A DNA stretch of 64,000 bases from Pyropia yezoensis. Taxonomy: Eukaryota; Rhodophyta; Bangiophyceae; Bangiales; Bangiaceae. Each line of letters starts with the position of its first letter. Position 1 is the first letter of the stretch. Below are positions 20,762 through 62,007 of this stretch, one piece after another. The position numbers were made by a program, and so were the translations under genes. Where the stretch lies: positions 20,434,020 to 20,498,019 of the forward strand of contig CM020620.1 in the NCBI GenBank assembly GCA_009829735.1, written 5' to 3'. Below the pieces are notes generated by a model, which did not search any database, was not told the DNA's origin, and was given only the letters and a program-made list of their open reading frames with translations.

Positions 20762-20765
20762 TATT

Positions 20766-23584: not shown

Positions 23585-23602
23585 CGGGGATCCGCCCGTG
23601 CT

Positions 23603-26600: not shown

Positions 26601-26824
26601 GGTTCGGTTCTAACCCGGCAGATGATACCTGGGAACCCTCAAACCGGCTACCCATCGCGGATGTCCGTGCCTACACGCGACGGAACGGCATAGAGGGCAC
26701 TCCAGTGGCCAGAGCCGGCAAGATTCTGGAGTCGGACTCGGAGGAGGACCAAGAGGATGGGGCCAACCAAGACCCTCGGGACGAGCCGAGTTCATCCGCA
26801 ACGGATGCGGAACAAGAGGATTGA
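23603..26824 (+). CDS. pol: A pol: reverse transcriptase, RNase H, integrase, chromodomain
   Basis: This 1073-residue open frame carries out reverse transcription and integration. Reverse transcriptase lies at about residues 75-330 (catalytic YLDD in LVYLDDIIVFS). RNase H is at about 390-510 (DACGVQVG, ERECLAVVW, TDHASLRWL). Integrase begins with the H-H-C-C finger (GHPGINRMY ... CVSCARNR) at about 620-660. The D,D-35-E core follows: MDILGPL, LTDNGPQFAS, and GHVERFNR. A C-terminal chromodomain (VYVKFVDHAWRDGRLYLRVRW) defines it as a chromovirus; in such elements this domain directs integration to marked chromatin. No stop or frameshift is seen, so this copy could encode working enzymes. Confidence 0.95.
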   Translation: MSKEDLLNLQQELASNLTALDVPPKQEQAGSATPKPEQAPPGMPKVKQENVPPDLKEALEKLLQEYRHLWSGELGKMDATLHRIQLKPEAKPVHMQPYRAGPHRRDEIEKQVNKMLKMDVIEPSDGEWAFPVVVVPKTGGHFRFCVDYRRLNEMTVKDVYPIPRMDDCLDFLGDTTLFSTLDCNAGYWQIPLADEDKDKTTFTCHLGLFRCKRLPFGLTNAPATFQRAIDIILSGLRWRTCLVYLDDIIVFSKTPAEHLEHLREVLALLSKAGATLKAKKCHLFETEVEYLGHVLSPGELRVNEKNIKALRHARQPETQTELKSFLGMCNVYRRFVRDYARIARPLTKLTSKKLPAQLPVFDEKQTAAFEELKKRLTTTPVLALPKREGQFVLETDACGVQVGCSLLQQQPDGHFLPIGYYSRVLTPAKKNYSTTERECLAVVWACFLLRPYLEGQEFLIRTDHASLRWLLCMDSSQGRVARWRLRLSEFKYKVCTRAGREHHCADTMYRLETPAADTGPIPEEIPCFILPNVGRGWHAPLYETPEADQPVTIHRMLEAQLTDPQCLELRHQMDLNRNSRFSESTDGLLVRVSPFDGATQVYVPRGLRADILRLEHSSPQAGHPGINRMYASMRRHYYWETMASDVHKYLEACVSCARNRLSQRKKTSKLRLFPAAEPFASLSMDILGPLPETSSGNIYLLIICDRFSKFTRAIPLRTITALDVTSAFCEYWIAAYGPPDSVLTDNGPQFASLFFEGVCDLMGIKNLYTTTYHKQTNGHVERFNRILVDMLRHYVEEHQEDWDELLAVLTLAYNSRVHRTTGVAPLDFVTPRRLTNFSLERIPDGLQPALKSGPKAKDEFLEQLKLLLPRVKESISKTQERYKRGYDKGVREKNKELGGGDWVFVDNHSKTWGKLDSKTDGPYEILNTDGWTFLLDVDGSPYRVSSDHVTRAPPPSQRDWTRRKRAAVPWLSQVEGREYVYVKFVDHAWRDGRLYLRVRWFGSNPADDTWEPSNRLPIADVRAYTRRNGIEGTPVARAGKILESDSEEDQEDGANQDPRDEPSSSATDAEQED

Positions 26825-26969
26825 GAAGAAGGGAACGGGTATATCAAGGAGAACACGCAATACAAGCATGGAACAATCAAGGAAAACAAGCACCCGCTTG
26901 GGCAATTCTTGTCTCCGCCGCTTCCCTCCTGGCTTCTCCCAAGACCCTCACCCTCCTTGCCTCCAACTA

Positions 26970-29087
26970 CTACTTCCGGCGCGGACGCTGAGCCGCGGGA
27001 GTGTCCTCCAGCGCTGCCTCCGCTGCACGACGGGAACCGGAGGAAGACGGGATGACGTAGTGCGGTGGACGCGGTGCATCGCGGTATGACGCCATCGGGG
27101 TAGTACCGGTAGTTGCCGGGGGCTCCCGCTCATCCAGATATGCCCGTCGGCGCCCCTGGAAGCCAGTGAAGGTTTCTGACCACTGCTGGGCCAAGCCATG
27201 CCGCGTCAAGGTCGCCAGAAGTTCGCCAACCACCGGGCTGTTCGACATCTGGCCGCTGTCCGCGCAAGCAAGCACCCGGTCAACCACGTTGTTCAAGACG
27301 CTGGCGTAAGTGCCCAGCACCAGGGAAGACCCGACGCCCTCAACCTGCACCGGAAGAGGACCCAGCTGGTCTTCAATCATACCGACGTCGTACTGGTCGC
27401 ATGTCGGGCCACCTTGGTTCAGGTACCAGTCAGGCACCCTGAAGCGGGTAAGGCGCAGAGTCGGCGCCGGAATCGCGAACCGCCCCGAGGATGACACCAC
27501 CGGACGGTCCACAACGGCCCCCGAAACCGGAGTACCCAACTCCAGCGGAGGCACAGCGCCGCCGGCGTTGGAAGAAGGCGTCCGAGGCGGAGCGGCCGGA
27601 GTGGTAGGCGACGGCACGGTCACCCCCAGACTCGCCGCAGACAGGCGCGGTGCCGGAGGAGCTTGAAGTACCGGCACAGCCGGAACAGGGCGTGAACGCG
27701 CCGGCGACGGTTCAGGCGAGGCCACCGGGGCGACAGGTGCAACAGGAGGAAGCGGAGCCGCCGCAGACGCCTGACCGACTGCCGCGGCCCATCCCGACTC
27801 CTGCACCGGCGGCCCAACTGGCAGAAGATCAAGGGCGGCCGGGGCAGGAAAGCTACCTAGCTGCGGCCACGCCGGATGCGGCGTCGCCAGCTGCACCTTG
27901 GCCGGAGAAGACTGGTAGACCACCTGCGCCCAACCGAAGCCATCCCGACGCGGGCGGTTCTGGTCGGCAATCGCGTTCAAGAAGTTCCGGTCATGCACCG
28001 GCACCAGACGCCGGAAGTCAATCATCGCCTGGAAGAGCCCCTTGTACTCTTCGTCCTGGCTGCACAGGAAGTCGACGGTCAACTTGTCGACAATCCAGAC
28101 CATCAGGAGGTCAGGGAGAAACCAAAGCCGGTTGGACACCAAGACCTCGTGAAGCCAGTGGTTGGCCGCCAAGACTGTCATCTCGGACGTGTACATCATG
28201 CACGGGATCGAGTGGAAGAAGCCTTTGATCGACGCCTGAGTCAAGGCGTCCAAGAAGTACCAGGTGAAGGGGATGCTGGAAGGAGGAAACCCGACCGGGA
28301 TCTCGACTTCCTGCTGCTGCGGGATGACCTTGGGGTAGTACGCCGCCCGGTTAGCCTTATCCAGCTTCCAGAACTCCTGATGGTTGCAGCTCACGAGGAA
28401 GTCACGCTGACGGCCGCGTCGCTCGCCTTGCTCCCGTTCCGGTGACAACTTGGAGTACTTCCGGGTCAGGAAAGGCGGCTCCAGAGCGACCATGCTCGGA
28501 CGGGGGTCGCAGTTCAGGCTCCCCGACCCCTTGAGCGCCTCGTCCCAGACCATGAGCGCCCGGTGGACGTACCCTTCCTCCTCCGGCCACCGGAGAACGG
28601 ACGCGGACACGCGACGCTCGGTCAAGGGCAGATCCAGCACCAGCGCGAAGGGGAGATCCTCCAGACAAGCAACCCAAGAGGAACCCGAGAAGCTCTGGGA
28701 GCGGTCTTGTGCCAGGCGCATCTGGTCCGCCGTGTGAAGACGAGCCTTATCCATCTCTGTCAAGACCCCGCGCTGGAGTTCCTTGCGCCAGAGGTCCAAG
28801 CAATCCTGCTGGCACTGGGCCGCGCCGGCGTTGCCGACCACCGTGGAGTAACGCCGGGCCGCCAGAGGGTCCTGCCCAAGAAGCATCTCCGGGAGACCCA
28901 CCGGGGGGGTCTCGACCGGGTGCATCACAGAAGCCGGGGGAACCCGATCCGTCCCCGCCGTGGCGACCGGCGCCGACATCGACACCCGAGGAACCGGAGG
29001 CAGGAGAGGGGCGCGACTACCCGAGTTCTCCTCCGCAACACTCGCCGCCGGAACCACGGGCCCAGCTTGGATCTCGGAACTGGACAT
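26970..29087 (-). CDS. A antisense ORF (705 aa), conserved accessory protein of unknown function
   Basis: It is read opposite to gag-pol, between pol and the 3' LTR, from ATG 29087 (MSSSEIQAG) to a stop at 26970. The middle (about residues 95-430) is helical and tryptophan-containing, and the C-terminal third is Pro/Ala-rich followed by a helical block and a basic tail (AAQRPRRK). It aligns by eye with the antisense ORF of family C in ordered blocks: YPKVIP..QEVEIPVGFP against YPKKPEWWPQVEVPYGFP, LAANHWLHEVLV against LATQWLLEVMST, and WFLPDLLMVWIVDKLT against LWHLPLRLIQGLEQLT. No signal peptide or membrane span is seen, so it does not look like an envelope protein. Antisense ORFs between pol and the 3' LTR are known in some plant Ty3 elements, but relation to those was not tested. 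Its function is unknown. Confidence 0.8.
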   Translation of the reverse strand: MSSSEIQAGPVVPAASVAEENSGSRAPLLPPVPRVSMSAPVATAGTDRVPPASVMHPVETPPVGLPEMLLGQDPLAARRYSTVVGNAGAAQCQQDCLDLWRKELQRGVLTEMDKARLHTADQMRLAQDRSQSFSGSSWVACLEDLPFALVLDLPLTERRVSASVLRWPEEEGYVHRALMVWDEALKGSGSLNCDPRPSMVALEPPFLTRKYSKLSPEREQGERRGRQRDFLVSCNHQEFWKLDKANRAAYYPKVIPQQQEVEIPVGFPPSSIPFTWYFLDALTQASIKGFFHSIPCMMYTSEMTVLAANHWLHEVLVSNRLWFLPDLLMVWIVDKLTVDFLCSQDEEYKGLFQAMIDFRRLVPVHDRNFLNAIADQNRPRRDGFGWAQVVYQSSPAKVQLATPHPAWPQLGSFPAPAALDLLPVGPPVQESGWAAAVGQASAAAPLPPVAPVAPVASPEPSPARSRPVPAVPVLQAPPAPRLSAASLGVTVPSPTTPAAPPRTPSSNAGGAVPPLELGTPVSGAVVDRPVVSSSGRFAIPAPTLRLTRFRVPDWYLNQGGPTCDQYDVGMIEDQLGPLPVQVEGVGSSLVLGTYASVLNNVVDRVLACADSGQMSNSPVVGELLATLTRHGLAQQWSETFTGFQGRRRAYLDEREPPATTGTTPMASYRDAPRPPHYVIPSSSGSRRAAEAALEDTPAAQRPRRK

Positions 29088-29271
29088 GACGTCCAGACTC
29101 CGGGGGAACGAGAGGGCCAAGGTGAAGGAGAGAAGGGGGGCAGAGAACCGGAGCAGGTGATCGTGACCAGGGTGAAGACGCTCGACCTCGGCACCGGTGT
29201 GGACGTGCTCGAGGCTGTGCACGGTGGCACCTGGTTCGGCCCGAGGACGTGCCGGACTAGGGAGGGAGCCA

Positions 29272-29842
29272 TGTAGCGTTCCTGGCCCCGACTTGGCGCC
29301 GACCCGGGACTACAACCAGAGGGCACCAGGTGCGAGAACACGCCCGCCGTGTGGTGATGGTTGGCGGCCGTGGCCCGTGCCCGGCACTGGGATGCGGCGG
29401 ACTACGCTATCCACACGTGAGAGAGGGATTGCTGATGGGTTTTTGCATACTTGTGAGGGACTTGATTTGAGAGAATTTGAGTGTGAGATTAGTGGGTGGG
29501 AATAGAATTAGTAGTGATAGTGGCCCCCGACCTGACGAGGTTAGACTCGGGTCGGGGCCACTCGGGGTTATGGGGGGGCTACCTGGCCAACGTGCCGAGG
29601 CTCCTCCAGATGCACGTTAAGAGGGACAGCGAGGCGCCCTTGGCCCGCGCCCTCAGGAAAAAGACAACTGCGCGTTTGCTTTCCTCTTCCCCGTGTGCAC
29701 TACCGTGCGTATCTGTTTGCTCTGCGAGCAGGCACGTGAGGCAACAGGCATACCATTCTCGTAGTTCCCCTTTCTGTGTTACCTGTCCCTTTCCCCCGAG
29801 GGCTATTGACACGTGTCTGAGAGGATCGAGTTTTATACCACA
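29272..29842 (+). repeat. 3' LTR of A
   Basis: 571 bp, TGTAGC...CCACA, about 99% identical to the 5' LTR. The differences cluster in the first 160 bases. It is preceded by AGGGAGGGAGCCA, probably the polypurine tract. Transcription of the antisense ORF would have to start in or just inside this LTR on the minus strand. Confidence 0.95.
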
Positions 29843-30838
29843 AGAGCATTGAGCACAAGTTGCGCCGCCCCACTCGTGGGCCCAAGGACGATGGCGCACT
29901 TCGCCAGGTCGTGTGGGGCGCTCGTGAACTTCACGACGGCCGTGTGGTCCTACGAGAGGGTTTGGGCATCGGGGACTACCCGTATGCCCCGGGGGTGGAT
30001 CGCCACACTGCGCCACCCCCGGACAAGGCCAGGGTTATGGCCGTGCCCTCATATGATGACCATATGACTCAACCCACTGCGGGGGCCCCAAGTCGGGGTC
30101 GCAGTTACACCCGGGTCCCGCCACCTAGGCGTGCCCCTCCGCTTCCTCCTGTTCCTTTCCAACCTCACGGGAACATCCCGATCAGCGTGGCCGTGGAGTC
30201 TTCCACCCCGGTGTCCCCCAACTTGGGGGCCACCCTCCTGACGGTATACCCCAAGTTGGTGTTACCGCCCACGCCTCTAACCTCAGAGATGATGATCACC
30301 ACGTTGGTGCGCACCACTTCCTGGTTGGCCGCGTCGACCGCAACTCTTCAAAGTTCCAAGACTCCTCAACTTGAGGAGCGCGTTCGTACTGCAGTGGCGA
30401 CCGCGAGTTGCGAGTCGGTGGCGGAGTTTATGACGGCCGAGTTGGCTCGTATTGGGGCTATTATGCCCCAGCCAGCCCCACTTGGGCGTGGCAAACGTCG
30501 CGCGAGCCGGGCATACTCGCCTCCTCGCCGTCGTCGCCGACACTCGCGGCGCTCTCCCTCCGTGTCGGAAGACGAGTTGTCTTACTCCGTCTCGGAGTTT
30601 TCGACTCCGTCAGAGTCGGAGTTGGTCCGGCGTCTGCGTTGCCAACTTGCGCGCAAGACTAAACAGAAGGGCAGCCGCGGTCGTCGCCACTTGCGCGACC
30701 GTGAGGGGCGCGGCGGTTCCGACTTGGAGCCGCCGGCCCCGCCGACTGGTGGGGAGCGTTATCGCCGTGGGTCTCGCCGCTCGCCTCTACGTGAGGGCGA
30801 GGGCCGTGGGGTTGGAGAGTCTAGCATGCATGCCTAGT
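29843..30838 (+). pseudogene. C1 antisense ORF, 3' portion
   Basis: Continues the C1 antisense ORF after element A, beginning with the second AGAGC. It covers the RPTRGPKDDGALRQ block and a Pro-rich linker containing the palindrome CCCCCAACTTGGGGG (30215-30229). A helical block (ERVRTAVATASCESVAEF) and an Arg/Ser-rich tail (YSPPRRRRRHSRRSPS) follow. The tail resembles SR-type, RNA-associated regions. It ends at a TAG near 30836. Confidence 0.8.
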
Positions 30839-30948
30839 TGGCAGCTGCCCTTGTTGTGAGAGTGTGAGGGTTAGGGCTGTAGTTAAAAGCCACTCTGCGT
30901 ACCACTTCGACTTGAAGCACTCTCTTGGCACTGTTACTCGGCCTTCCC

Positions 30949-33900
30949 TCACGTTGAGGGAGGGCTGTTAGGGTCTATCTCATTCCGGGCACAGTACGCC
31001 CGGACTTTCTCAGCGGGAAGGTCCTCCACAAACTCCCATGTATCACCCTTGGCTTTGTAGCCAAATTATCGCACCCTCAACATGAGGCGGTCAGTGTCCT
31101 CATCCCAGCCGTGGTCGATGAACTTATCGAACACGGACTCCTGCGGGCCCTGTTTGGCCGCAGGCTGCGAGGGGAGGCGCCACGCTTCCAACGCACGCGC
31201 CCAAGCTGGGTCGCCTGCAGGCGGTGGTGCAACTTTGACCACGTCCTGTCCGTTCACTGTGCGGACCCCATCGTCACTTTCGATGGTGAAGCGCCGCCCA
31301 TCAGTACGAAGGACCTTGTACGGCCCCTTAGTCTGGAATACCAACTTACTCCCAGTTGGGGTGTCTGAGTGTACCAGCACCCAGTCACCCTGCTCGGGGA
31401 CATGCTTGGCGTTGCGCACCTTTTTGTCAAAGGTACGCTTGTAGCGCTTTTGTGCTTTGTCCATCTCAGCGCTGACTTTAGGGATGAGGTTTTCAAGCCT
31501 AGCAGCGAACTCCGCCTTACTCTCAGTAGGAGTAGGCGTACTGCCACCATCCTCCCTAGTTGGGAGCGGCCGCTGCATGGCAATAGACCGCACGCGACGG
31601 GGGGTCACAAAAGCGAGGGGTACTTCCGCGGTAGATGAGTGAACATGCGAATCTTAGGCAGTGGTAAGAATAGAAATGTATTGGTCCCACGTCTTCACAT
31701 GCTCACTCACATAGTGGCGCAGCTGCCGAACAATAGTTTTGTTGAAGCTCTCCACCTGCCCGTTAGTTTGTGGGTGGTAGGGGGTGGCATAGTTTGCCTT
31801 AACCCCCAACATATCCAGCACTCCCTGAAACAGTACAGACGCAAATTGCGGTCCATTGTCCGATAGTGTACTATCCGGAATGCCATACGAGGCAACCCAG
31901 TGATCTAGGAAGGCTGACACGACCGACATGGCCGTGATCTCTGCCAGTGGGATCGCTCGCGTAAGTTTCGTGAAGCGGTCACAGATGACCAGGAGGTACT
32001 GGTTGCCCTCCTCGGTCACTGGCAGTGGCCCAAGGATATCCATCGCTAACGCGGCAAAGGGCTCCTTTGCCGGGAACAATAGCATAGCTGTATCAGGCCG
32101 CCGTTCCATCAGACGGTTCTGTACACAACTTTTGCAGGCAGCCACCCAACTGTAGATGTCCACCACCATGGACGGCCAGTAGTACCTGGACCTCAGGGTC
32201 TGGTACAGTTTCCTAGACCCCAGGTGTCCACCCGTGGGAGCGTTGTGCTCCCTCTCAAGGATACTGTCCTTGAGGGATGCGGGGACGACAAGTTGTTTGG
32301 TCCCCTGGAATACCCTCCTCCTCATGAGGATGCCATCGTCTCCCAGAAAGAACCGCGTCTCCGCCACTGTATCCAGTGTATCCCTCTGCGACTTGCAGAA
32401 GGGATCCTCGGCCTGGGCGTTCACCACCTCGTCCAGGGACAGGGGCAAGTACTTCTTGTTCCCTGGCGCCTCGGGGTTCAATACCTGACCCGAGCGCGTG
32501 ACTGCCCCCACGATGGGGATGTCCTTATCGACTGGGTTAGTGTCCAGCCCCTCGGTAGGTACGCGAGAAAGGCCGTCGGCAAGGGCATGTTGCCTGCCAG
32601 GTCGGTACTCAATATCAAAGTTGAAGGGTGCCAGTCGCACCCTCCACCGATTGAGACGAGTGTTCGTACAGTCCGTCTTAAAGATGAACTGCAACGCGCG
32701 GTGGTCACAGCGGATGAGGAACTTCTCACCCTCCAGGTAGTGACGAAGTGACGTCACCGCCCACACCACTGCGAGTCCTTCCAACTCGGTGACTCCATAG
32801 CTCTCCTCGGCCCAGTTCAGCCCCTTGCTGAAGTATCCCACCGGCAAGTACTCCTTGTCCGGATGCTGGTGAAGCAACACACGACCAAGTTGGTTGTAGC
32901 TAGCATCCACATCCAGGATGTAGTGGCCTCCCAACCTGGGAATAGCCAGGATAGGGGGCTTCAGCAGAAGGTCCCGAAGAGTCTCAAAGGATTCCTGCTC
33001 CACCCGACTGGGGGGAGGCAGGATCTTCGGTAGCGTTGAGCTCACTAACTCATTCAACGGCTTGGCCATCTTGGCGAAGCCCTTGGTGAAACGTCGGTAC
33101 ACGTTACACATCCCGAGGAAGCTCCTCATCTGGGTCTGGGTCCGGGGGTACTGAGCCTTCCGGATGGCCCTCAAGTTCTTTTCGTTGACACTGAGACGCC
33201 TCTGACGGACAACATGTCCCAAGTACTCCACCCCTTGAGTGAAGAGGTGGCACTTACTCGCCTTCAGTGACACAACGGCATCAGCAAGTAGCTTGAACAC
33301 CTGGCCAAGATGGCCAATGTGCTCCACCGGACTTCGGGAGATCACAATGATATCGTCTAGGTACACGAGACAGATCTGCCACCGTTCTCCGGCCAGAATC
33401 ATGTCCATAGCGCGCTGGAAAGTTGCCGGCGCGTTACACAGACCGAACGGTAGACGCTTGCACTAGTAGGTACCACAGGGACAGGTAAAGGTAGTTTTAT
33501 GCCTGTCCTCCGGGGCAATGGGAATTTGCCAGTACCCCGCGTTACAGTCCAGGGTAGAGAACACGTTCGCCTCCCCCAGAGAGTCCAGACAGTCATCCAT
33601 CCTAGGTAGGGGATAACTGTCCTTCAACGTGCTCTCGTTGAGCTTACGGTAGTCGATACAAAACCGGGGGGTCCCATCAACTTTGGGGACTATAACCACC
33701 GGACTCGCCCACTCGGCGTTACTGGCCTCGATCACATCGAGGGCCTCCATGCGAGCAACTTGCTCCTTAACGAGGGCCCTTGAACGGGGTCCTCCCCTAT
33801 ACGGTTGTTGGCGTATAGGGGGTGCACCGGGCTTCAACTCGATCCGGTGTTGGGTAGCTCTCATGAGTCCCAATTGACCATCCCACAACTTGTGATATTG

Positions 33901-34932
33901 GTCCAAGAGGCGTTCAACTTGAACCCTCAACCTGGGTGGAACACCCTCCATGTTCCCATGGGGCCAAGGAGAGGCGGCCGACTTGGCTTGATGCTTCTCC
34001 TTTCCGGACTCCGGGTCGCTACTTGCGCCCGCGTTGAGGGTGACCGCTACTACCGGTCCCTCTTGTTGGTCGATATAGCCGAACTTGGCTCCCGACTTGA
34101 AGTACTTGGGCGACGAGCTCAGGTTCATAACCTGGATCCTCCACGGGACTCCGGCTTTGGAGTCCATCGTGCCAAGGGCAACATGCACTTGGTGCTTGCG
34201 AGCAAGACGGGGGTAAGGGTGCACCAACCCGTTCCCCGTATAATCAGATACAACCTCAACGTGCGCCACCGAGTTGGGGGGCAACGTGACTTTACGGGCT
34301 AAACGCAGGGTAGCAGTGGACCCTTCCCTCACAGAGCATACAGGCTTCGACTGTGAGACTGTCACAGGAGCCACAGACTTTCCCTTACCAAGGATGGGGA
34401 TAGTCTCCCCATTCATCAACTTGACCCAGTACTCCGGGCTACAAATCAAAGGCACATGTGTTACGACATAAGGGGTACCCAGAAGCAGGGGTACCGATTT
34501 ATTGTCAACTACACCATAGGTCACGTTGACCTCATGGGTCCCCAACCTAGTTGGTAGGGTCACGGCACCAACGATGGGAAGTACCCCGCCATTGATATCG
34601 ATCAGATGGTCAGCTTTAGACTTCCAGCGTTGGAGCTTCATCTCCTTTGGTAATAGCGACTTGCGTATCAAGGAGGCTCCTGACCCGGTATCAAGTACGA
34701 TACGGGCACAACAGGCGCGGCCGGGGGCAAGTTGCACCCGTCCAGCCACCTGGAAGATCTCACCCGTCAGCACCGCGATGACCCAACGTGGGTTTACGTT
34801 CTTGGGGAGTCCTACCCGAGGTGGGCGGACTCCCTTAGGTCGCCGCAGTATCCGGCACGGTTGATTCGTCCTCTCGACCCACGTGGCCGAGGCTGCCGTT
34901 GTGAGCTTCGGACGACCAGATTCAACGGTCAT
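30949..34932 (-). pseudogene. pol: C1 pol (protease-RT-RNase H-integrase-chromodomain), with stop codons
   Basis: Single frame from ATG 34932 to the TGA at about 30949. Compared with C2 it carries TAG at 33463-33465 (CAG in C2) just before the RT palm, TAA at 31654-31656 (TAC in C2) in integrase, and TAA at 31066-31068 (TGG in C2) in the chromodomain. All other landmarks are present: DTGSGAS protease site near 34700, YLDD at about 33365, SDNGPQF at about 31850 and a QVESFNK motif where C2 has QVERFNK. The copy cannot make a full polyprotein. Confidence 0.9.
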
Positions 34933-36876
34933 TCGTTTCCCGCCGACTTGGCGTCCGAATCTGAGGACGAAGGGGAAGACGACGAGTCCGAGGACGACGT
35001 GTCCGCCTCCTCCGCCGAGGGTGTGGCGACCGCGACGACCGGTCGAGACCCACCCTCGCGGCGTGAACGTACTTCGCTCGTAGCCGACTTCTTACTCGCA
35101 TTCCTAACAAGTTGTTGGATGCGTTTACTCAACTTGGGGCAATCATATGCCCAGTGTCCATCGGAGTTGCAGTTCCAACACCGATGGTCAGTTCCCGGAG
35201 GGGTCTTCCCAACTGGGGAAGACGAAGAGGTACCCTGGGAAGTTCCCACGGCAGCTACCACCCTCTCCTTGCGGACTCGGCGTGCCTCTCTCAACTCTCT
35301 GGCCTGGCGCGCCTCCTCCCGTTCCTTGGCCAGCTCGGACTGACGCTCCTGGCGTTGTTCCTCCCGCAACTTGCGGTAGGCCTCGCCTCTGCGGTAGGCG
35401 AACCTAGCCAACTCGGCCAGGGTCGCCCGGGCAGTGTTATGCTCCCGGGTCTCCATCCGGACTGACCAATGGAGCCCTTCCACAAATCGACTCTTCACCA
35501 CAGCTTGTGGATGAAGGAACCCACAAAGATTGTTCAGCTAACGGACTCGCTCCGCAAAGGACAACTCGTCCTCCGCCTCTTCCTGATGGTCTTGCGTAAA
35601 CTCCTCGACTTGAGAAGCCAACGCTGCCTCATCAAACCGTGGCTCTCAACAACCAGTTGACGAGCTCCAAATAGGACGTCACCTCCCCAGCGCCTCCGCT
35701 TGAGGAGCTAGGCATGACGGACATAAGTTCTGTCCGCAGGTCTCCCTTCGTAAACCCCTGTAGCATGTAGAAAGCCATGCCTTCACTTATGGCATTGTCG
35801 TCACAGGCTTTTGTGAAACGACATAGGAACTCAAAGACACGGAGGGGGGGAGTTCCATCCCACTCCGCTTTGTGCTCAAAAGAGTGAAGTGCATTCTTCT
35901 TGGCACGGCCCATGGCTCGGGCCTGGTCAGGGCCATACACCACCGACTTGTTGTGGAGGGCGTAGGTCTCACAGTCAAAGATCCCCTGGTAGACCGGGTT
36001 GGCTACCTGGATCTTGGGCGGCACTTCACGTTGAGGGAACAGCCGCTGTGGCACTGGGGTAAGGTCACCCTCAGTGCCTGTAGTCCGGCGCGGCGCGCTT
36101 GGTGTAGCCGCCGGCGTTTCCGGGGGGAACTCCCCCGTGAAGGGCGTACGCCCCACCGAGTATGGTGTGGCTCCCTCTTTGGAAGTCACAGGTGTCGCCC
36201 CCTGTTCGGGGCGACCAGAGGTAGGCGTGAGGAGGGATTCCCCCGGCGCCTGCGGGCTCGAAAGCCCCGATCCGGTCTGGACATCAAGGCCATCTGGCAA
36301 ACTCGCCACAATCTGATTCAGAATTGTATTCGTCATCGTGACCACCAGGTCCGGCAAAGTCTGCCGCAACACAATGGTCGCCTCCCGACGGACAGTTTCC
36401 GCGAGGAGTGGATTGACGACTCCGGTTGAGTCTCGGTCCGCCTCCGGGAGTCCACCTGAGGGGTAACCACGTTCCTCAGGGGTCTCAACCGGGGGCATGG
36501 GCACGAGCCCATCGCCGACCAACGGAGGTCCGCCGTCCTCCGAAAGCCTAGTTGGCGACGGCTCCAAGCCAAAGTTGGCTCCAACCCGAGTGGAACCCGC
36601 GGGGACAGTCCTCACCCCTTGGGACGTTCCCGTTGAGTATACCATGCGGTGGCCAGACTTCGGCCCACCCACATCAGAAGTGTCACCCGAGTGAACTCCC
36701 GACTGAGTCGGGGTGGCCTGTTGCCCGCCCGTACTTCCGGTCCTGCTGGCTTGAGGGACCTCTAGTCCCTCTGCGACCCCAGGTAAACCCACCTGTGTCT
36801 CACCAGTATTCAAAGGCACTGAATTACGTGCGGCACCCGTGTACTCCCCGGACGACGGGGGGTCCGAGCGAGCCAT
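34929..36876 (-). CDS. gag: C1 gag (two frames)
   Basis: Starts at ATG 36876 (MARSDPPSSGEY). A long Pro/Thr/Gly-rich N-terminus precedes the capsid-like region ending SYLELVNWLLRATV, with a stop at 35632-35634. The second frame (+1) continues with FDEAALASQVEEF. It then has a charged helix rich in Arg/Glu (LREEQRQERQ) and the knuckle CWNCNSDGHWAYDC, ending at a TGA overlapping the pol ATG as ATGA (34929-34932). The same break occurs in C2 at ACG GTT TGA, which argues for programmed +1 frameshifting rather than random damage. Unlike C2, the first frame has no other indel. Confidence 0.85.
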
Positions 36877-36974
36877 GTTGGCTAACGATCCGTATGACAC
36901 GGTCGAAGTCCACCGTTCCTCTGAGACAGAGGGCCCCCCACACCCGGGTGCACCCGGAGGTAAAGTTTACCTCT

Positions 36975-36993
36975 GTCCCCTGCTGCTCCACCA
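36975..36993 (-). promoter_or_regulatory. primer binding site of C1
   Basis: TGGTGGAGCAGCAGGGGAC, two bases inside the 5' LTR, matches the A and C2 sites except for the last base. Confidence 0.7.
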
Positions 36994-36995
36994 AA

Positions 36996-37464
36996 TGTGG
37001 CAAAAACCACTAGCACACACGGCACCCAAGTTGGGGCGGTGTGCAAGGGCTGCCTCCCGTGTCGGGGGAACCGTAAGAAGTGCAAGTCGCACACACTCTG
37101 TCCCTGTTGTGGGGCAAACCCCCCACGGACAAACAAGAGGATGGTGTGTGGTCCAACAGTTTCTTGGTCGGGACGGGGACGCAGGGCCAAGCCCCGCTGT
37201 CCCTCCCCTTATCCCCCCAGGGGCCCCTCAGAATCTCGCCACTCAGAATCTCCCACCCCAGCACCTGCCCACCGGGCCACACGAAAATTCAAGACGATAA
37301 ATGCAGAAAACCCTCAAATCCAAGTTGGATTTACTACTAAGCTAACTATCCCAAACTTAGGGAATATGGACCCAAATGCAGGGGGAGGAACGGATCAGGC
37401 TAGTGGCCTGCCGCCCCTTGCATGGCACGTGTTGCCCCCCTACCTGTGGGTCAATACTGCCACA
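36996..37464 (-). repeat. 5' LTR of C1
   Basis: 469 bp, same ends as the other C LTRs. It includes CACCCAAGTTGGGGCGGTG, the same CCCAAGTTGGG core seen as palindromes in the antisense ORF. Confidence 0.95.
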
Positions 37465-48015: not shown

Positions 48016-48484
48016 TGTGGCAGTATTGACCCCCAGGTAGGGGGGCAACACGTGCCATGCAAGGGGCGGCAGGCCACTAGCCTGATCCGTTCCTCCCCCT
48101 GCATTTGGGTCCATATTCCCTAAGTTTGGGATAGTTAGCTTAGTAGTAAATCCAACTTGGATTTGAGGGTTTTCTGCATTTATCGTCTTGAATTTTCGTG
48201 TGGCCCGGTGGGCAGGTGCTGGGGTGGGAGATTCTGAGTGGCGAGATTCTGAGTGGACCTTGGGGGGATAAGGGGAGGGACAGCGGGGCTTGGCCCTGCG
48301 TCCCCGTCCCGACCAAGAAACTGTTGGACCACACACCATCCTCTTGTTTGTCCGTGGGGGGTTTGCCCCACAACAGGGACAGAGTGTGTGCGACTTGCAC
48401 TTCTTCCGGTTCCCCCGACACGGGAGGCAGCCCTGGCACACCGCCCCAACTTGGGTGCCGTGTGTGCTTGTGGTTTTTGCCACA
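48016..48484 (+). repeat. 5' LTR of C2
   Basis: 469 bp, TGTGGCA...TGCCACA. It contains the tandem phrase GAGATTCTGAGTGGC / GAGATTCTGAGTGGA near 48226-48256. Confidence 0.95.
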
Positions 48485-48486
48485 TT

Positions 48487-48505
48487 TGGTGGAGCAGCAG
48501 GGGAT
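48487..48505 (+). promoter_or_regulatory. primer binding site of C2
   Basis: TGGTGGAGCAGCAGGGGAT, two bases after the LTR, identical to the site in element A despite different LTRs. Confidence 0.75.
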
Positions 48506-48603
48506 AGAGGTAAACTTTACCTCCGGGTGCACCCGGGTGTAGGGGGCCCTCTGTCTCAGAGGAACGGTGGTCTTGGACCGTGTCATACGGATCGTCAGCC
48601 AAC

Positions 48604-50550
48604 ATGGCTAGTTCGGACCCTCCGTCGTCCGGGGAGTACACGGGTGACGCACGTACTTCAGTGCCTTTGAATACTGGTGAGACACAGGTGGGTTTACCTG
48701 GGGTCGCAGAGGGACTAGAGGTCCCTCAAGCCAGCAGGACCGGAAGTACGGGCGGGCAACAGGCCACCCCGACTCAGTCGGGAGTTCACTCGGGTGACAC
48801 TTCTGATGTGGGTGGGCCGAAGTCTGGCCACCGCATGGTATACTCAACGGGAACGTCCCAAGGGGTGAGGACTGTCCCCGCGGGTTCCACTCGGGTTGGA
48901 GCCAACTTTGGCTTGGAGCCGTCGCCAACTAGGCTTTCGGAGGACGGCGGACCTCCGTTGGTCGGTGATGGGCTCGCGCCCAGGCCCCGGTTGAGACCCC
49001 TGAGGAACGTGGTTACCCCTCAGGTGGACTCCCGGAGGCGGACCGAGACTCAACTGGAGTCGTCAATCCCCTCCTCGCGGAAACTGTCCGTCGGGAGGCG
49101 ACCAATGTGTTGCGGCAGACTTTGCCGGACCTGGTGGTCACGATGACGAATACTATTCTGAATCAGATTGTGGCGAGTTTGCCAGATGGCCTTAATGTCC
49201 AGACCGGATTGGGGCTTTCGAGCCCACAGGCGCAGGGGGAATCTCTCCTGACGCCTACCTCGGGTCGCCCCGAACTGGGGGCGACACCTGTGACTCCCAA
49301 CGAGGGAGCCACACCATACTCGGTGGGGCGTACGCCCTTCACGGGGGAGTTCCCCTCGGAAACGCCGGCGGCTACACCAAGCTCGCCGTACCAGACTACA
49401 GGCACTGAGGGTGGACTTACCCCAGTGCCACAGCGGCTGTTCCCTCAACGTGAGGTGCCGCCCAAGATTCAGGTAGCCAACCCGGTCTACCAGCGGATCT
49501 TTGACTGTGAGACCTACGCCCTCCACAACAAGTCGGTGGCGTATGGTCCTGACCAGGCCCGAGCTATGGGCCGTGCCAAGAAGAATGCACTTCATTCTTT
49601 TGGGCACAGAGCGGAGTGGGACGGAACTCCCCCCCTCCGTGTCTTTGAGTTCCTATGTCGTTTCACAAAAGCCTGTGACGACAATGCCATAAGTGAAGGC
49701 ATGGCTTTCTACATGCTACAGGGGTTTACGAAGGGAGACCTGCGGACAGAACTTATGTCCGTCATGCCTAGCTCCTCAAGTGGAGGCGCTGGGGAGGTGA
49801 CGTCCTATTTGGAGCTCGTCAACTGGTTGTTGAGAGCCACGGTTTGATGAGGCAGCGTTGGCTTCTCAAGTCGAGGAGTTTACGCAAGCCCATCAGGAAG
49901 AGGCGGAGGACGAGTTGTCCTTTGCGGAGCGAGTCCGTAAGCTGAACAATCTTTGTGGGTTTCTTCATCCACAAGCTGTGGTGAAGAGTCGGTTTGTGGA
50001 GGGACTCCATTGGTCAGTCCGGATGGAGACCCGGGAGCATAACACTGCCCGGGCGACCCTGGCCGAGTTGGCCAGGTTCGCCTATCGCAGAGGCGAGGCC
50101 TACCGCAAGTTGCGGGAGGAACAACGCCAGGAGCGTCAGGCCGAGTTGGCCAAGGAACGGGAGGAGGCGCGCCAAGCCAGAGAGTTGAGAGAGGCACGCC
50201 GAATCCGCAAGGAGAGGGTGGTAGCTGCCGTGGGAACTTCCCAGGGTACCTCTTCGTCTTCCCCAGTTGGGAAGACCCCTCCGGGAACTGACCATCGGTG
50301 TTGGAACTGCAACTCCGATGGACACTGGGCATATGATTGCCCCAAGTTGAGTAAACGCATCCAACAACTTGTTAGGAATGCGAGTAAGAAGTCGGCTACG
50401 AGCGAAGTACGTTCACGCCGCGAGGGTGGGTCTCGACCGGTCGTCGCGGTCGCCACACCCTCGGCGGAGGAGGCGGACACGTCGTCCTCGGACTCGTCGT
50501 CTTCCTCCCCGCCCTCAGATTCGGACGCCAAGTCGGCGGGAAACGAATGA
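48604..50550 (+). pseudogene. gag: C2 gag (two frames plus a one-base deletion)
   Basis: Starts at ATG 48604 (MASSDPPSSGEY). A one-base deletion near 48982 relative to C1 (a run of C residues) shifts the frame, and the capsid-like part then reads from about 49000 to a TGA at 49845-49847. That stop is in the ACG GTT TGA site shared with C1. The second gag frame then carries the Arg/Glu helix and the knuckle CWNCNSDGHWAYDC (near 50305), and ends with TGA overlapping the pol ATG. Apart from the deletion it is like C1. Confidence 0.85.
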
Positions 50551-53500
50551 CCGTTGGAGCTGGCCGTCCGAAGCTCATAACGGCAGCCTCGGCCAAGTGC
50601 GCCAGGAGGACGAACCAACCGTGCCGGATACTGCGGCGACCTAAGGGAGTCCGCCCACCTCGGGTAGGACTCCCCAAGAACGTAAACCCACGTCGGGTCA
50701 TCGCGGTGCTGACGGGTGAGAACTTCCAGGTGGCTGGACGGGTGCAACTTGCCCCCGGCCGCGCCTGTTGTGCCCGTATCGTGCTTGATACCGGGTCAGG
50801 AGCCTCCTTGATACGCAAGTCGCTATTACCAAAGGAGGTGAAGCTCCAACGCTGGAGGTCCAAGGCTGACCATATGATTGACATCAATGGTGGGGTACTT
50901 CCCATCGTTGGTGCCGTGACCCTACCAACTAGGTTGGGGACCCATGAGGTCGACGTGACCTATGGTGTAGTTGACAATAAATCGGTACCCCTGCTTCTGG
51001 GTACCCCTTATGTCGTAACACATGTGCCTTTGATTTGTAGCCCGGAGTACTGGGTCAAGTTGATGAATGGGGAGACTATCCCCATCCTTGGTAAGGGAAA
51101 GTCTGTGGCTCCTGTGACAGTCTCACAGTCGAAGCCTGTTTGCTCTGTGAGGGAAGGGTTTACTGCTACCCTGCGTTTAGCCCGCAAAGTCACGTTGCCC
51201 CCCAACTCGGTGGCGCACGTTGACGTTGTAACTGATTTTTCGGGGAACGGGTTGGTGCACCCTAACCCCCGTCTTGCTCGCAAGCACCAAGTGCATGTTG
51301 CCCTTGGCACGATGGACTCCAAAGCCGGAGTCCCGTGGAGGATCCAGGTTATGAACCTGAGTCCGACGCCCAAGTACTTCAAGTCGGGATCCAAGTTCGG
51401 CTATATCGACCAACATGAGGGACCGGTAGTAGCGGTCACCCTCAACGCGGGCGCAAGTAGCGACCCGAAGTCCGGAAAGGAGAAGCATCAAGCCAAGTCG
51501 GCCACCTCTCCTCGGCCCCATGGGAACATGGAGGGTGTTCCCCCCAGGTTGAGGGTTCAAGTTGAACGCCTCTTGGACCAATATCACAAGTTGTGGGATG
51601 GTCAATTGGGACTCATGAGAGCTACCCAACACCGGATCGAGTTGAAGCCCGGTGCACCCCCTATACGCCAACAACCGTATAGGGGAGGACCCCGTTCAAG
51701 AACCCTCGTTAAGGAGCAAGTTGCTCGCATGGAGGCCCTCGATGTGATCGAGGCCAGCAACGCCGAGTGGGCGAGTCCGGTGGTTATAGTCCCCAAAGTT
51801 GATGGGACCCCCCGGTTTTGTATCGACTACCGTAAGCTCAACGAGAGCACGTTGAAGGACAGTTATCCCCTACCTAGGATGGATGACTGTCTGGACTCTC
51901 TGGGGGAGGCGAACGTGTTCTCTACCCTGGACTGTAACGCGGGGTACTGGCAAATTCCCATTGCCCCGGAGGACAGGCATAAAACTACCTTTACCTGTCA
52001 CTGTGGTACCTACCAGTGCAAGCGCCTACCGTTTGGTCTGTGTAACGCGCCGGCAACTTTCCAGCGCGCTATGGACATGATTATGGCCGGAGAACGGTGG
52101 CAGATCTGTCTCGTGTACCTAGACGACATCCTTGTGTTCTCCCGAAGTCCGGAGGAACACATTGGCCATCTTGGCCAGGTGTTCAAGCTACTTGCTGACG
52201 CCGGTGTGTCACTGAAGGCGAGTAAGTGCCACCTCTTCACTCAAGAGGTGGAGTACTTGGGACATGTTGTCCGTCCGGGGCGTCTCAGTGTTAACGAGAA
52301 GAACTTGAGGGCCATACGTAAGGCTCAGTACCCCCGGACCCAGACCCAGATGAGGAGCTTCCTCGGGATGTGTAACGTGTACCGACGTTTCACCAAGGTC
52401 TTCGCCAAGGTGGCGAAGCCGTTGAATGAGCTAGTGAGCTCAACGCTACCGAAGAACCTGCCTCCCCCAAGTCGGGTGGAGCAGGAATCCTTTGAGGCCC
52501 TTCGGGACCTTCTGCTGAAGCCCCCCATCTTGGCAATTCCCAGGTTGGGAGGCCACTACATCCTGGATGTGGACGCTAGCTACGACCAACTTGGTTGTGT
52601 GTTGCTTCAGCAGCAGCCGGACAAGGAGTACTTGCCGGTGGGATACTTCAGTAAGGGGCTGAACTCGGCCGAGAAGAACTACGGAGTCACCGAGTTGGAA
52701 GGACTCGCAGTGGTATGGGCGGTGACGTCACTTCGTCACTACCTAGAGGGTGAGAAGTTCCTCATCCGCTGTGACCACCGCGCGTTGCAGTTTATCTTCA
52801 AGACGGACTGTACGATCACTCGTCTCAACCGGTGGAGGGTGCGACTGGCACCCTTCAACTTTGACATTGAGTACCGACCTGGCAGGCAACATGCCCTTGC
52901 CGATGGCCTCTCTCTGGTAACCACCGAGGGGCTGGACACTAACCCAGTCGATGAGGAAATCCCCATCGTGGGGGTAGTCACGCGCTCGGGTCAGGCGTTG
53001 AACCCCGAGGCGCCAGGGAACAAGAAGTACTTGCCCCTGTCCCTGGACGAGGTGGTGAAGGCCCAGGCCGAGGATCCCTTCTGCAAGTCGCAGAGGGATA
53101 CACTGGATACAGTGGCGGAGACGCGGTTCTTTCTGGGAGACGATGGCATCCTCATGAGGAGGGGGGTATTCCAGGGGACCGAACAACTTGTCGTCCCCGC
53201 ATCCTTCAAGGACAGTATCCTTGAGAGGGAGCACAACGCTCCCACGGGTGGACACCTGGGGTCTAGTAAACTGTACCAGACCCTGAGGACCAGGTACTAC
53301 TGGCCGTCCATGGTGGTGGACATCTAGAGTTGGGTGGCTGCCTGCACAAGTTGTGCACAGAACCGTCTGATGGAACGGCGGCCTAGTACGGCTATGCTAT
53401 TGTTCCCGGCCAAGGAGCCCTTCGCCGCGTTGGCGATGGACATCCTTGGGCCACTGCCAGTGACCGAGGAAGGCAACCAGTACCTCCTGGTCATCTGTGA

Positions 53501-54530
53501 CCGCTTCACGAAACTTACGCGAGCGATCCCACTGGCAGAGATCACGGCCATGTCGGTCGTGTCAGCCTTCCTAGATCACTGGGTTGCCGCGTATGGCATC
53601 CCAGATAGTACACTATCGGACAATGGACCGCAATTTGCGTCTGTACTGTTTCAGGGAGTGCTGGATATGTTGGGGGTTAAGGCAAACTATGCCACCCCCT
53701 ACCACCCACAAACTAATGGGCAGGTGGAGCGCTTCAACAAAACTATTGTTAGGCAGCTGCGCCACTATGTGAGTGAGCATGTGAAGACGTGGGACCAATA
53801 CATTTCTATTCTTACTACTGCCTACAATTCGCAGGTTCACTCATCTACAGGGGAAGTACCCCTCGCTTTTGTGACCCCCCGTCGTGTGCGGTCTATTGCC
53901 GTGCGGCGGTCGCTCCCAACTAGGGAGGATGGTGGCAGTACGCCTACTCCTACTGAGAGTAAGGCGGAGTTCGCTGCTAGGCTTGAAAACCTCATCCCTA
54001 AAGTCAGCGCTGAGATGGACAAAGCACAAAAGCGCTACAAGCGTACCTTTGACAAAAAGGTGCGCAATGCTAAGCATGTCCCCGAGCAGGGTGACTGGGT
54101 GCTGGTACACTCGCACACCCCAACTGGGGGTAAGCTGGTATTCCAGACGAAGGGACCGTACCAGGTCCTTCGTACTGATGGGCGGCGCTTCACCATCGAA
54201 AGTGACGATGGGGTCCGCACAGTGAACGGACAAGACGTGGTCAAAGTTGCACCACCGCCTGCAGGCGACCCAGCTTGGGCACGTGCGTTGGAGTCGTGGC
54301 GCCTCCCCTCACTGCCTGCGGCCAAACAGGGCCCGCAGGAGTACGTGTTCGATAAGTTCATCGACCACGGATGGGATGAAGACACTGACCGCCTCATGTT
54401 GAGGGTGCGTTGGTTTGGCTACAAAGCCAAGGATGATACATGGGAGTATGTGGAGGACCTTCCCGCTGAGAAAGTCCGGGCGTACTGTGCCCGGAATGAG
54501 ATAGACCCTAACAGCCCTCCCTCAACGTGA
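50547..54530 (+). pseudogene. pol: C2 pol polyprotein with one stop codon
   Basis: One frame of 1327 codons broken only by TAG at 53325-53327 (TAC in C1), inside the integrase zinc finger. Protease DTGSGAS near residue 80; RT with YLDD (LVYLDDILVFS) at about 52115; RNase H with DVDASYDQLG, ELEGLAVVW and CDHRALQF; integrase GGHLGSSKLY...CTSCAQNR, MDILGPL, SDNGPQF and GQVERFNK; chromodomain near the end (FDKFIDHGWDEDTDRLMLRVRW). Unlike element A, protease and RT are continuous, with no stop between them. The start overlaps the gag stop as ATGA, an arrangement suited to reinitiation. Confidence 0.95.
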
Positions 54531-54641
54531 GGGAAGGCCGAGCAACAGTGCCAAGAGAGTGCTTCAAGTCGAAGTGGTACGCAGAGTGGCTTTTAACTAC
54601 AGCCCTAACCCTCACACTCTCACAACAAAGGCAGCTGCCAA

Positions 54642-56585
54642 CTAGGCACGCATGCTAGACTCTCCCACTCCACGGCCCTCGCCCTCCCGTGGAGGCGAGC
54701 GGCGAGACCCACGCCGATAACGGTCTCCACTCGTTGGAGGGGGCGGCAGCTCCAAGTCGGAACCGTCGCGCCCCTCACGGTCGCGCAAGTGGCGCCGACC
54801 GTGACTACTCTTCTGCCTGGTCTTGCGCGCAAGTTTGCGACGCAGACGCTGGACAGACTCCGTCTCCGACGGGGTAGAGGACTCCGAGACGGAGTAAGAC
54901 AACTCGTCTTCCGACACGGAGGGAGAGCGCCGAGAGTGTCGGCGACGACGGCGAGGAGGCGAGTATGCCCGGCTCGCGCGACGTTTGCCACGCCCAAGTG
55001 GGGCTGGCTGGGGCATAATAGCCCCAATACGAGCCAACTCGGCTGTCATAAACTCCGCCACCGACTCGCAACTCGCGGTCGCCACTGCAGTACGAACGCG
55101 CTCCTCAAGTTGAGGAGTCTCGGAACTCTGTAGGGTTGCGGTCGACGCGGCCAACCAGGAAATGGTGCGCACCAACGTGGTGATCATCATCTCTGAGGTT
55201 AGAGGCATGGGCGGCAACACCAACTTGGGGTATACCGTCAGGAGGGTGGCCCCCAAGTTGGGGGACACCGGGGTGGAAGACTCCACGGCCACGCTGATCG
55301 GGATGTTCCCGTGAGGTTGGAAAGGAACAGGAGGAAGCGGAGGGGCCCGCCGAGGTGGCGGTACCCGGGTGTAACTGCGACCCCGACTTGGGGCTCCCGC
55401 AGTGGGTTGAGTCATGTGGTCATCATAGGACGGCACGGCCATAACCCTGGCCTTGTCCGGGGGTGGCGCAGTGTGGCGATCCACCCCCGGGGCATACGGG
55501 TAGTCCCCGATGCCCAATCCCTCTCGTAGGACCACACGGCCGTCGTGAAGTTCACGAGCGACCCACACGAACTGGCGAAGAGCGCCATCGTCCTTGGGCC
55601 CACGAGTGGGGCGGCACAACTTGTGCTCAATGCTCTCCCACTCGATAAACTTGTGAAGGCGGAGCATCTCCTCACGTAGAGTGAGTTGTCCTGATGAGCA
55701 CCCCTCAGCAACTAGCTGAGGGGTGAGCTGTTCCAAACCCTGGATGAGCCGGAGGGGGAGATGCCAGAGCATCCCCCGCCGCTGAACACAGGACACCCAG
55801 GTCGACATGACCTCGAGGAGCCACTGGGTGGCCAACATGGCCCACACCAGGTGATCAGGGGCAGCCGTCAACATGACGGAGCCGAAGTGGTCAAGCAACC
55901 GGGGCAACAACGCCGGGAACCCGTAGGGCACCTCAACTTGAGGCCACCACTCGGGCTTCTTCGGATAGCACTGCTCCTTACTGGCAGCAGACTGTTGAGG
56001 AAACTCAAGTTGAGCCGAGGTCACCAAGTAGGGACCTCGCCGGAAGTCTTTCTCCATCCGCACATCAAAGTGATGAGTGTGCGGATCGGCCTCGTGGAGG
56101 TACGGTGGGCGAGTTGCCACAGCGTCCCACGTGAAGGTCGGCAAGTCGCCGGGACCCGGGATAGTTCCCCCGCGGTCCACCATGGCCTTGGCACGTTGGA
56201 CGTCTTCAACCTCCTCGTCGTCTAGGAAGGCAAACTGGTCCGTCCTGAAGCCGGCCGGGAACCTGACCCTACGGGGATACTTCTCCCGTAGGCGGTCCCA
56301 TACCCGGCCCATCGCTGCGCCAAGTCGGCCACAGCGAAGAACAGTCAACCCCTCCTCATAAAGAGGCCAAGCGGGGTAAAACCACCGCCCCAAGGCCTCA
56401 CGCGGGACAACTTGTCCCGCCTCCGGGGGAGATCCCGCCGTCAACCCAAAGCCGGGTGACGCGGGAGTCCCATCCCCCGGAGCGATCGCGGAGCCCCCGC
56501 CGGAAGTCCCGGCGGGTGCTGCACCGTAGGTGGGGTCCTCCATACGCTCGTCAAGAGAATCCGTCTCCACTCCCGGAGTCGCCAT
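54642..56585 (-). CDS. C2 antisense ORF (647 aa), intact accessory protein of unknown function
   Basis: Minus-strand ORF between pol and the 3' LTR, from ATG 56585 (MATPGVETD) to a stop at 54642, open throughout. It has a Gly/Ala/Pro-rich N-terminus of about 65 residues and a globular-looking region (about 70-370). That region includes WFYPAWPLYEEGLTVLRCG, YPKKPEWWPQVEVPYGFP and LATQWLLEVMST. A Pro-rich linker, a helical block and an Arg/Ser tail (YSPPRRRRRHSRR) follow. The frame is also open upstream through the LTR, but this ATG is conserved in C1. It follows the palindrome TCTCCCCAAGTTGGGGAGA (56589-56607) by three bases. Blocks align with the antisense ORF of family A. The tail suggests RNA or nuclear association; no enzyme motif or membrane span was seen. 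It needs a promoter on the minus strand, probably in the 3' LTR or the 340 bases between. Confidence 0.8.
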   Translation of the reverse strand: MATPGVETDSLDERMEDPTYGAAPAGTSGGGSAIAPGDGTPASPGFGLTAGSPPEAGQVVPREALGRWFYPAWPLYEEGLTVLRCGRLGAAMGRVWDRLREKYPRRVRFPAGFRTDQFAFLDDEEVEDVQRAKAMVDRGGTIPGPGDLPTFTWDAVATRPPYLHEADPHTHHFDVRMEKDFRRGPYLVTSAQLEFPQQSAASKEQCYPKKPEWWPQVEVPYGFPALLPRLLDHFGSVMLTAAPDHLVWAMLATQWLLEVMSTWVSCVQRRGMLWHLPLRLIQGLEQLTPQLVAEGCSSGQLTLREEMLRLHKFIEWESIEHKLCRPTRGPKDDGALRQFVWVARELHDGRVVLREGLGIGDYPYAPGVDRHTAPPPDKARVMAVPSYDDHMTQPTAGAPSRGRSYTRVPPPRRAPPLPPVPFQPHGNIPISVAVESSTPVSPNLGATLLTVYPKLVLPPMPLTSEMMITTLVRTISWLAASTATLQSSETPQLEERVRTAVATASCESVAEFMTAELARIGAIMPQPAPLGRGKRRASRAYSPPRRRRRHSRRSPSVSEDELSYSVSESSTPSETESVQRLRRKLARKTRQKSSHGRRHLRDREGRDGSDLELPPPPTSGDRYRRGSRRSPPREGEGRGVGESSMRA

Positions 56586-56923
56586 GACTCTCCCCAAGTT
56601 GGGGAGAGACGCTCTGGCTATCGCAGCACGAGACCCGCCTCGAGTTGAGGGGGACTCGGATCGTGGGTATACGGGTGGCCTCCCCAGCGTGGGGCGGCCC
56701 AGTGGAAAGTGAAGTGGAGGTGGTGGTGATGGTGAAGTGTGAACTGAGGAGAGCAAGCTGCCGAGTGGGCAAGCTTGAGGAGAGGGGCGGTCAACGTGAC
56801 CGCCTCCACATCCGCGATACGTACACGCTGGGGGACAGCAAGTCGCGCCCCCAACGCCGAGACGTGCGTTTACGCACCCCCCCACAGGGCCGACCGGGTC
56901 GGTCGGAACTGAGGAGAGGGGAG

Positions 56924-57392
56924 TGTGGCAGTATTGACCCCCAGGTAGGGGGGCAACACGTGCCATGCACGGGGCGGCAGGCCACTAGCCTGATCCGTTC
57001 CTCCCCCTGCATTTGGGTCCATATTCCCTAAGTTTGGGATAGTTAGCTTAGTAGTAAATCCAACTTGGATTTGAGGGTTTTCTGCATTTATCGTCTTGAA
57101 TTTTCGTGTGGCCCGGTGGGCAGGTGCTGGGGTGGGAGATTCTGAGTGGCGAGATTCTGAGTGGACCCTGGGGGGATAAGGGGAGGGACAGCGGGGCTTG
57201 GCCCTGCGTCCCCGTCCCGACCAAGAAACTGTTGGACCACACACCATCCTCTTGTTTGTCCGTGGGGGGTTTGCCCCACAACAGGAACAGAGTGTGTGCG
57301 ACTTGCACTTCTTCCGGTTCCCCCGACACGGGAGGCAGCCCTGGCACACCGCCCCAACTTGGGTGCCGTGTGTGCTTGTGGTTTTTGCCACA
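56924..57392 (+). repeat. 3' LTR of C2
   Basis: 469 bp. It differs from the 5' LTR at about three positions (near 56969, 57168 and 57285). Confidence 0.95.
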
Positions 57393-62005: not shown

Positions 62006-62007
62006 AG

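Follow-up and report, generated by a model that had tools for sequence, protein, structure and literature searches.

Ty3/gypsy retrotransposons of the red alga Pyropia yezoensis carry a long open reading frame (ORF) between pol and the 3' LTR, antisense to the element, that is under frame-specific purifying selection and encodes a domain whose homology spans five families, referred to here as A, C, D, E and F. Families A and C occur together in a stretch of 64,000 nucleotides of contig CM020620.1, which we call the window and in which all coordinates are counted. The window contains three elements, each with a 5-bp target duplication (TSD) around it:

20191..29842, plus strand: element A (LTRs 20191-20761 and 29272-29842, 98.3% identical; TSD AGAGC)
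18430..37464, minus strand: element C1, interrupted by A (LTR pair 95.8% identical; TSD GTCCT)
48016..57392, plus strand: element C2, Ty3/gypsy (LTRs 48016-48484 and 56924-57392, 99.4% identical; TSD AAATC)
23603..26824, plus strand: pol of A (Pfam: RT, RNase H, H2C2, integrase core)
50547..53327, plus strand: pol of C2, first part (Pfam RVT_1, RT_RNaseH, Integrase_H2C2; RT, RNase H, H2C2)
53334..54530, plus strand: pol of C2, second part (Pfam rve, 47 bits; integrase core, chromodomain-like end)

In the window, Pfam matches place the domains of A and C2 in the Ty3/gypsy order RT-RNase H-integrase, together with LTRs and the 5-bp TSD. The integrase C-terminus of C matches Chromo (PF00385) at E 2.4e-4 and 21.4 bits, against a curated cut-off of 25.1; that of A has no PF00385 match at E <= 0.001, and its tail resembles that of C by eye. 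The gag of A and that of C, each split over frames in the window copies, both contain a zinc knuckle. An earlier reading of the DNA from its letters alone (the sequence-only reading) had described the LTRs of the two families as unrelated, and blastn between them indeed gives no match. Just inside these non-matching 5' LTRs, A (20762-20785) and C (48485-48505) have in common a putative primer-binding sequence, TGGTGGAGCAGCAGGGGAT. Elsewhere in the window, a lone LTR-like copy at 62008-62412 is ~81-83% identical to the C LTR and probably represents an older subfamily; tblastn with both antisense proteins finds no match beside it. Adjoining it is an inverted pair of ~600 bp (57937-58532 and 61423-62007, 84% identical) that encloses ~2.9 kb. 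Very GC-rich, imperfect direct repeats with spacings of 226, 308 and 525 bp lie at 39664-40801, inside DNA of 68-73% GC, and two plus-strand ORFs at 40754-42613 (619 aa) and 43895-44743 (282 aa), which have no confident Pfam match, are possibly parts of a DNA transposon gene.

The antisense ORFs and their conserved parts are as follows:

54642..56585, minus strand: antisense ORF of C2, 647 aa (open frame, single terminal stop)
26970..29087, minus strand: antisense ORF of A, 705 aa (open frame, single terminal stop)
55722..56120, minus strand: conserved domain of the C2 ORF, residues 156-288 (BLASTP/tblastn to A, HMM)
28077..28490, minus strand: conserved domain of the A ORF, residues 200-337 (BLASTP/tblastn to C, HMM)
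19237..20190, plus strand: antisense ORF of C1, N-terminal half (tblastn 95%; ORF end at 20184, stop just before the insertion)
29843..30837, plus strand: antisense ORF of C1, C-terminal half (tblastn 92%)

The coordinates and lengths of the two long frames are exactly those that the sequence-only reading had claimed. The copy in C1, which it had called broken, is interrupted both by the stop and by the insertion of A, whose insertion site lies within the C1 antisense ORF; the two halves show no other indel relative to C2. The remaining five frames of the same DNA contain 11-26 stops in C and 6-19 in A. The antisense ORF and pol are arranged tail-to-tail with zero overlap, the stop-to-stop gap being 111 bp in C2 and 145 bp in A. 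Because these convergent genes do not overlap, the antisense frame cannot be a mere reflection of sense coding sequence. The distance from the ATG to the 3' LTR is 185 bp in A and 339 bp in C, and that to the putative LTR start is ~309 bp in D, ~310 bp in F and ~101 bp in a further lineage, G.

The antisense proteins of A and C are 25% identical over 138 aa (BLASTP, E 2e-6), and among 36 frame pairs the antisense/antisense pair is the sole significant one in composition-adjusted BLASTP (E 1e-5). Two other frame pairs with raw Smith-Waterman scores of 158 and 100 were rejected, since shuffles reach these scores in 200/300 and 14/300 cases and composition-adjusted BLASTP lends them no support. 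The similarity is confined to one domain (C 156-288, A 200-337), whose alignment score of 84 is reached by none of 1000 windowed shuffles (mean 35); the full-length score of 99 (shuffle mean 64) is reached by 4 of 1000. Profile searches in which one family was left out extend this result to the level of profiles: an HMM built without A recovers A (E 4e-22 and 4e-23) and one built without C recovers C (E 5e-18 and 6e-18), the best of 400 shuffles scoring 2.0 and 6.1 bits. The domain is likewise carried by families D, E and F, each recovered by its left-out HMM at E below 1e-94, with shuffles at most 2.0-6.2 bits. Some of the finer resemblances proposed earlier fared less well. The YPK...VE.P.GFP and LP...LT blocks align in register, but the third motif block ('WLLEV' in C, 'WLHEV' in A) is 8 residues out of register in BLAST. 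A likeness between the C-terminal parts of the two proteins was not borne out, its score being reached by 196 of 1000 shuffles. The basic tail described for both is present in C (net charge +18 in the last 120 aa), whereas A, at only +3, is not clearly basic there.

A search of the Pyropia yezoensis genome with the A protein scored at least 63 nearly full-length copies of 97-100% identity, a lower bound that comprises the best-scoring copies only; 49 of the 63 have no internal stop and 14 have one or two. A DNA search placed a 1-kb part of the C ORF in at least 40 positions at >=98%. Further families were sought in the 2.8 kb downstream of 20 of the 150 scored integrase matches, a non-random set picked for variety. 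Seven of these 20 ends carry the domain (L039, L040, L043, L047, L048, L053, L058), with stops in the antisense frame of L040 and L043 and with L058 cut by another element. Five (L041, L042, L044, L052, L055) retain the antisense leader alone, without the domain, and the long antisense ORF of one (L049) belongs to a different type. The other seven gave no match in the examined 2.8 kb, and at least one of those stretches (L054) enters other pol sequence. In the five domain-less relatives, ~700 bp of other DNA replaces the domain-coding part between pol and the LTR, and their ends are D-type or F-type, which suggests recombination between families. Three of the five have a long open pol (L041, 1442 aa; L055, 1437 aa; L052, 1217 aa); the pol frames of L042 (453 aa) and L044 (694 aa) are shorter. 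Beyond this genome, no relatives were confirmed in viral_contigs (queries P0001, P0002, A1, A3 and pol A2) or genome_contigs (A3), a result that says little about other algae because these collections are viral and prokaryotic.

The substitution pattern between subfamilies is that of a protein-coding gene. In the antisense frame, dN/dS is 0.26 for A/L053 (705 codons), 0.17 for C2/L048 (647 codons), 0.19 and 0.19 for two parts of the ORF in G, and 0.25 for D/F and 0.28 for D/E, the last two being rough because dS is 1.1-1.5. With correction for the mutation spectrum the values become 0.32 (A/L053), 0.21 (C2/L048), 0.23 and 0.28 (G parts), 0.42 (D/F) and 0.49 (D/E). Under a null in which the same substitutions are placed at random with their CpG context retained, the observed synonymous share was reached in 0/200 replicates for each of six pairs; for E/E2, both of which contain stops, dN/dS is 0.44 and the null reached the observed share in 1/200. 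Across the ORF, C1 and C2 differ by 20, 17 and 61 changes at codon positions 1, 2 and 3, respectively. Within family A, the five wrong frames give 0.95-1.55 in four cases and 0.39 in the reverse frame, where third positions are paired with third positions of the ORF. RT between subfamilies mostly yields lower ratios (A 0.12, C 0.15, D/F 0.06, D/E 0.05; corrected 0.19, 0.22, 0.15, 0.18), and the antisense ORF is therefore in general less constrained than RT. Within families, dN/dS is 0.28 in A (30 of the 63 scored copies, 7 of these 30 with a stop) and 0.40 in C (6 of 8 loci, L005 being dropped for a 15-nt gap and L008 as partial), which is weaker evidence because picking A copies by their protein score favours low dN.

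Between subfamilies, 9 of 13 indels in the 160 nt that precede the shared ATG break the frame, compared with 0 of 2 inside the ORF; in the C pair, 0 of 2 upstream indels do so. Plain DNA identity is similar on either side of the ATG while the frame constraint starts there, so translation most likely begins at this shared ATG. The proposal of the sequence-only reading that selection acts on a shared antisense retrotransposon protein is thus upheld by profile homology, by ratios that are not near 1 (0.17-0.28 between subfamilies, with a matched null) and by the frame-breaking indels (0/2 vs 9/13).

The domain-less relatives are an internal negative control for these measurements. Beyond the leader their antisense frame is open and without constraint, with dN/dS of 0.95 (L041/L044) and 2.39 (L052/L055, few changes), which indicates that openness alone does not yield the selection signal; in the leader itself the ratios are 0.42 and 0.30. 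Two further accounts of the ORF find little support. The frame might be open by chance, in that GC-rich, codon-biased DNA yields long spurious antisense frames, and this DNA does contain long frames open in both orientations (for example in the L049 region and the short relatives). There is, however, no sense gene opposite the ORF, and the frame-pair test, HMMs, dN/dS and indels point to coding; the first three of these in effect rule chance openness out. It is also very unlikely that an antisense RNA, forming dsRNA with the genomic RNA, is what counts and that the frame is incidental. Such a transcript would complement the genomic RNA, a possibility discussed for plant elements in PMC7264820, but the frame-specific purifying selection and the conserved protein domain speak against it, the dN/dS values contradict it as the sole explanation, and the open domain-less frames do not show the constraint seen in the carriers.

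We further placed the carriers on an RT tree of 19 rows, all from this genome, comprising A, C and 17 of the 20 sampled elements (L060, L062 and L077, which have no full RT match, were dropped). Its rows fall into three main groups (A, C together with L051, and D/E/F), with L069, the element of L049, as the single outlier; RT of A is 63-67% identical to the other groups and 60% to the outlier. Each main group contains carriers of the domain, but they are interspersed with non-carriers: the tree requires 5 changes for this label, a number that 126 of 500 shuffles do not exceed. The simplest reading is that the domain would have been inherited from a common ancestor of the elements and subsequently lost in some. 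Alternatively, it may have passed between families by recombination, given that exchanges of 3' ends between families are observed (D-type and F-type ends in common between L041 and L055).

Lineage G, the outlier on the RT tree, extends the comparison to an antisense ORF of ~940 aa (L080), to which L081 is 99.9%, L079 90% and L049 84% identical. G matches C by BLASTP (E 3e-5), while its comparisons with A, D, E and F are not significant. Against the five-family HMM it scores 16.8 bits (E 4e-5) and 14.7 bits (E 2e-4), with shuffles at most 6.7 bits; hhalign returns E 2e-4, although its probability is only 46%. The antisense ORF of lineage G is thus probably kin of the A/C/D/E/F family.

The proteins themselves offer few clues to function. 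No relatives were found in Pfam, PHROGs, NCBIfam or PDB, and any molecular activity is a guess because no domain match exists in these four; the Pfam match to DUF641 that one of nine members gives, at E 0.15, lies at noise level. Besides the basic tail of C, which is RS-like, G contains 21 RS/SR as well as 9 RGG/RGR motifs, with a net charge of +39. D and F contain 13 RS/SR dipeptides each without the basic tail of C, and the net charge is near zero in A (-4), D (-2), E (-2) and F (+1). An AlphaFold model of the C domain from two sequences is unusable (mean pLDDT 32.8), with a helical core at very low confidence. No transmembrane-like stretch was detected in six proteins, in which the maximum 19-residue hydropathy is 1.54; this, together with the antisense orientation, argues against an Env-like 3' ORF. 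Nucleocapsid identity is rejected, since the Gag of A and C has its own zinc knuckle. A structural or particle-associated role of another kind, as a second capsid, chaperone, integration-targeting cofactor or env-like factor, would be in keeping with the length of ~650-940 aa, with the helical core of the very low-confidence model and with conservation across lineages. We nevertheless consider it rather improbable, given that Gag already has a zinc knuckle, that no transmembrane-like segment is present and that sense genomic RNA would be a simpler source for a structural protein. The domain-less relatives with a long pol also argue against an essential structural part.

We tentatively propose, as the most economical explanation though one somewhat short of probable, that the ORF is a real accessory gene of a red-algal Ty3/gypsy group whose putative minus-strand product is a trans-acting regulator working on nucleic acid or chromatin and not a structural Gag or Env. 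An antisense promoter within or adjoining the 3' LTR would produce a minus-strand mRNA from the region between pol and the 3' LTR, from which the accessory protein would be translated. This protein would then act in trans on nucleic acid or chromatin and so regulate the expression or handling of element RNA, a role that could be likened to that of retroviral antisense proteins, for which it is known, and of plant aORF-3R, for which it has been proposed. That three of the five domain-less relatives keep a long open pol fits a function that is dispensable or supplied in trans. Speaking against the proposal, the net charge of A, D, E and F is near zero, carriers and non-carriers are scattered on the RT tree, and not every element requires the gene in cis, as the domain-less relatives show.

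VANC of VANDAL elements is an anti-silencing factor, and the antisense protein could similarly counter host silencing, with domain-less relatives surviving where carriers are active. The domain diverges much faster than RT between families (25% vs ~63-67% identity), as might be expected of a host-interacting protein, and it has been lost in some relatives that have a long open pol. Selection within subfamilies, however, is purifying and not diversifying, and there is no sequence match, which together make an anti-silencing role unlikely in our judgement. Returning to a regulator of element RNA, a more far-reaching version would see it as a clade-wide, ancestral antisense regulator, independent of the flowering-plant genes and acting in trans, so that relatives which dropped the gene and have a long pol might live off the carriers in a two-tier system of helpers and dependants. 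This version we regard as conceivable but doubtful. Since one family alone offers 63 or more near-identical copies, and since some relatives have the domain and others lack it, comparisons between carriers and non-carriers can address the role.

Most descriptions of antisense accessory genes concern flowering-plant elements such as Retand, and where these genes came from and what they do has yet to be settled (PMC7264820; PMC11963269). Retand elements are known for antisense ORFs in the interval from pol to the 3' LTR, and 97% of their clusters encode Transposase_28 (PMC11963269); such ORFs are also reported for Grande, RIRE2 and Boty (PMC7264820). The plant aORF-3R (Retand, RIRE2, Grande gene23; PF04195) resembles the ORF described here: it is long, lies in antisense in the same interval, occurs in most copies and is common to several families, and no similar gene is reported outside transposable elements (PMC7264820; PMC11963269). 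Retand differs in its hosts, which are flowering plants, and is described as a non-chromovirus lineage. PF04195 has no match at E <= 5 in 11 antisense proteins, where HMMER filters may drop weak matches, and 0 matches at E <= 10 in the Pyropia yezoensis genome; membership in Transposase_28 was rejected on this sequence evidence. By eye, the conserved TRP28 residue spacing given in PMC11963269 was also not seen in the red-algal proteins. An additional antisense gene of a fungal LTR element, brtn of the Boty-like elements of Botrytis cinerea, can be likened to the red-algal ORF by description only (Boty is named in PMC7264820, brtn in PMC8365987). Its host belongs to a different kingdom from the red alga.

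Among retroviruses, too, there are antisense genes of a retroelement, and the likeness to them is one of analogy only. The antisense protein of HTLV is named HBZ, and it and the other HTLV/STLV antisense proteins might be compared with ours in that respect. An antisense promoter in the 3' LTR is given for HTLV in PMC7264820, and the antisense genes of HTLV/STLV are named in PMC11963269. In the open-access literature we found no report of such an antisense ORF in red algae. From this look at the literature, the layout is already known, and the protein family and the host lineage look new. A selected antisense protein in the same place in a red alga, without detectable relation to the plant ones, points to repeated origins of this arrangement or to great age. 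Its presence there also suggests that an antisense gene in this position has a general use.
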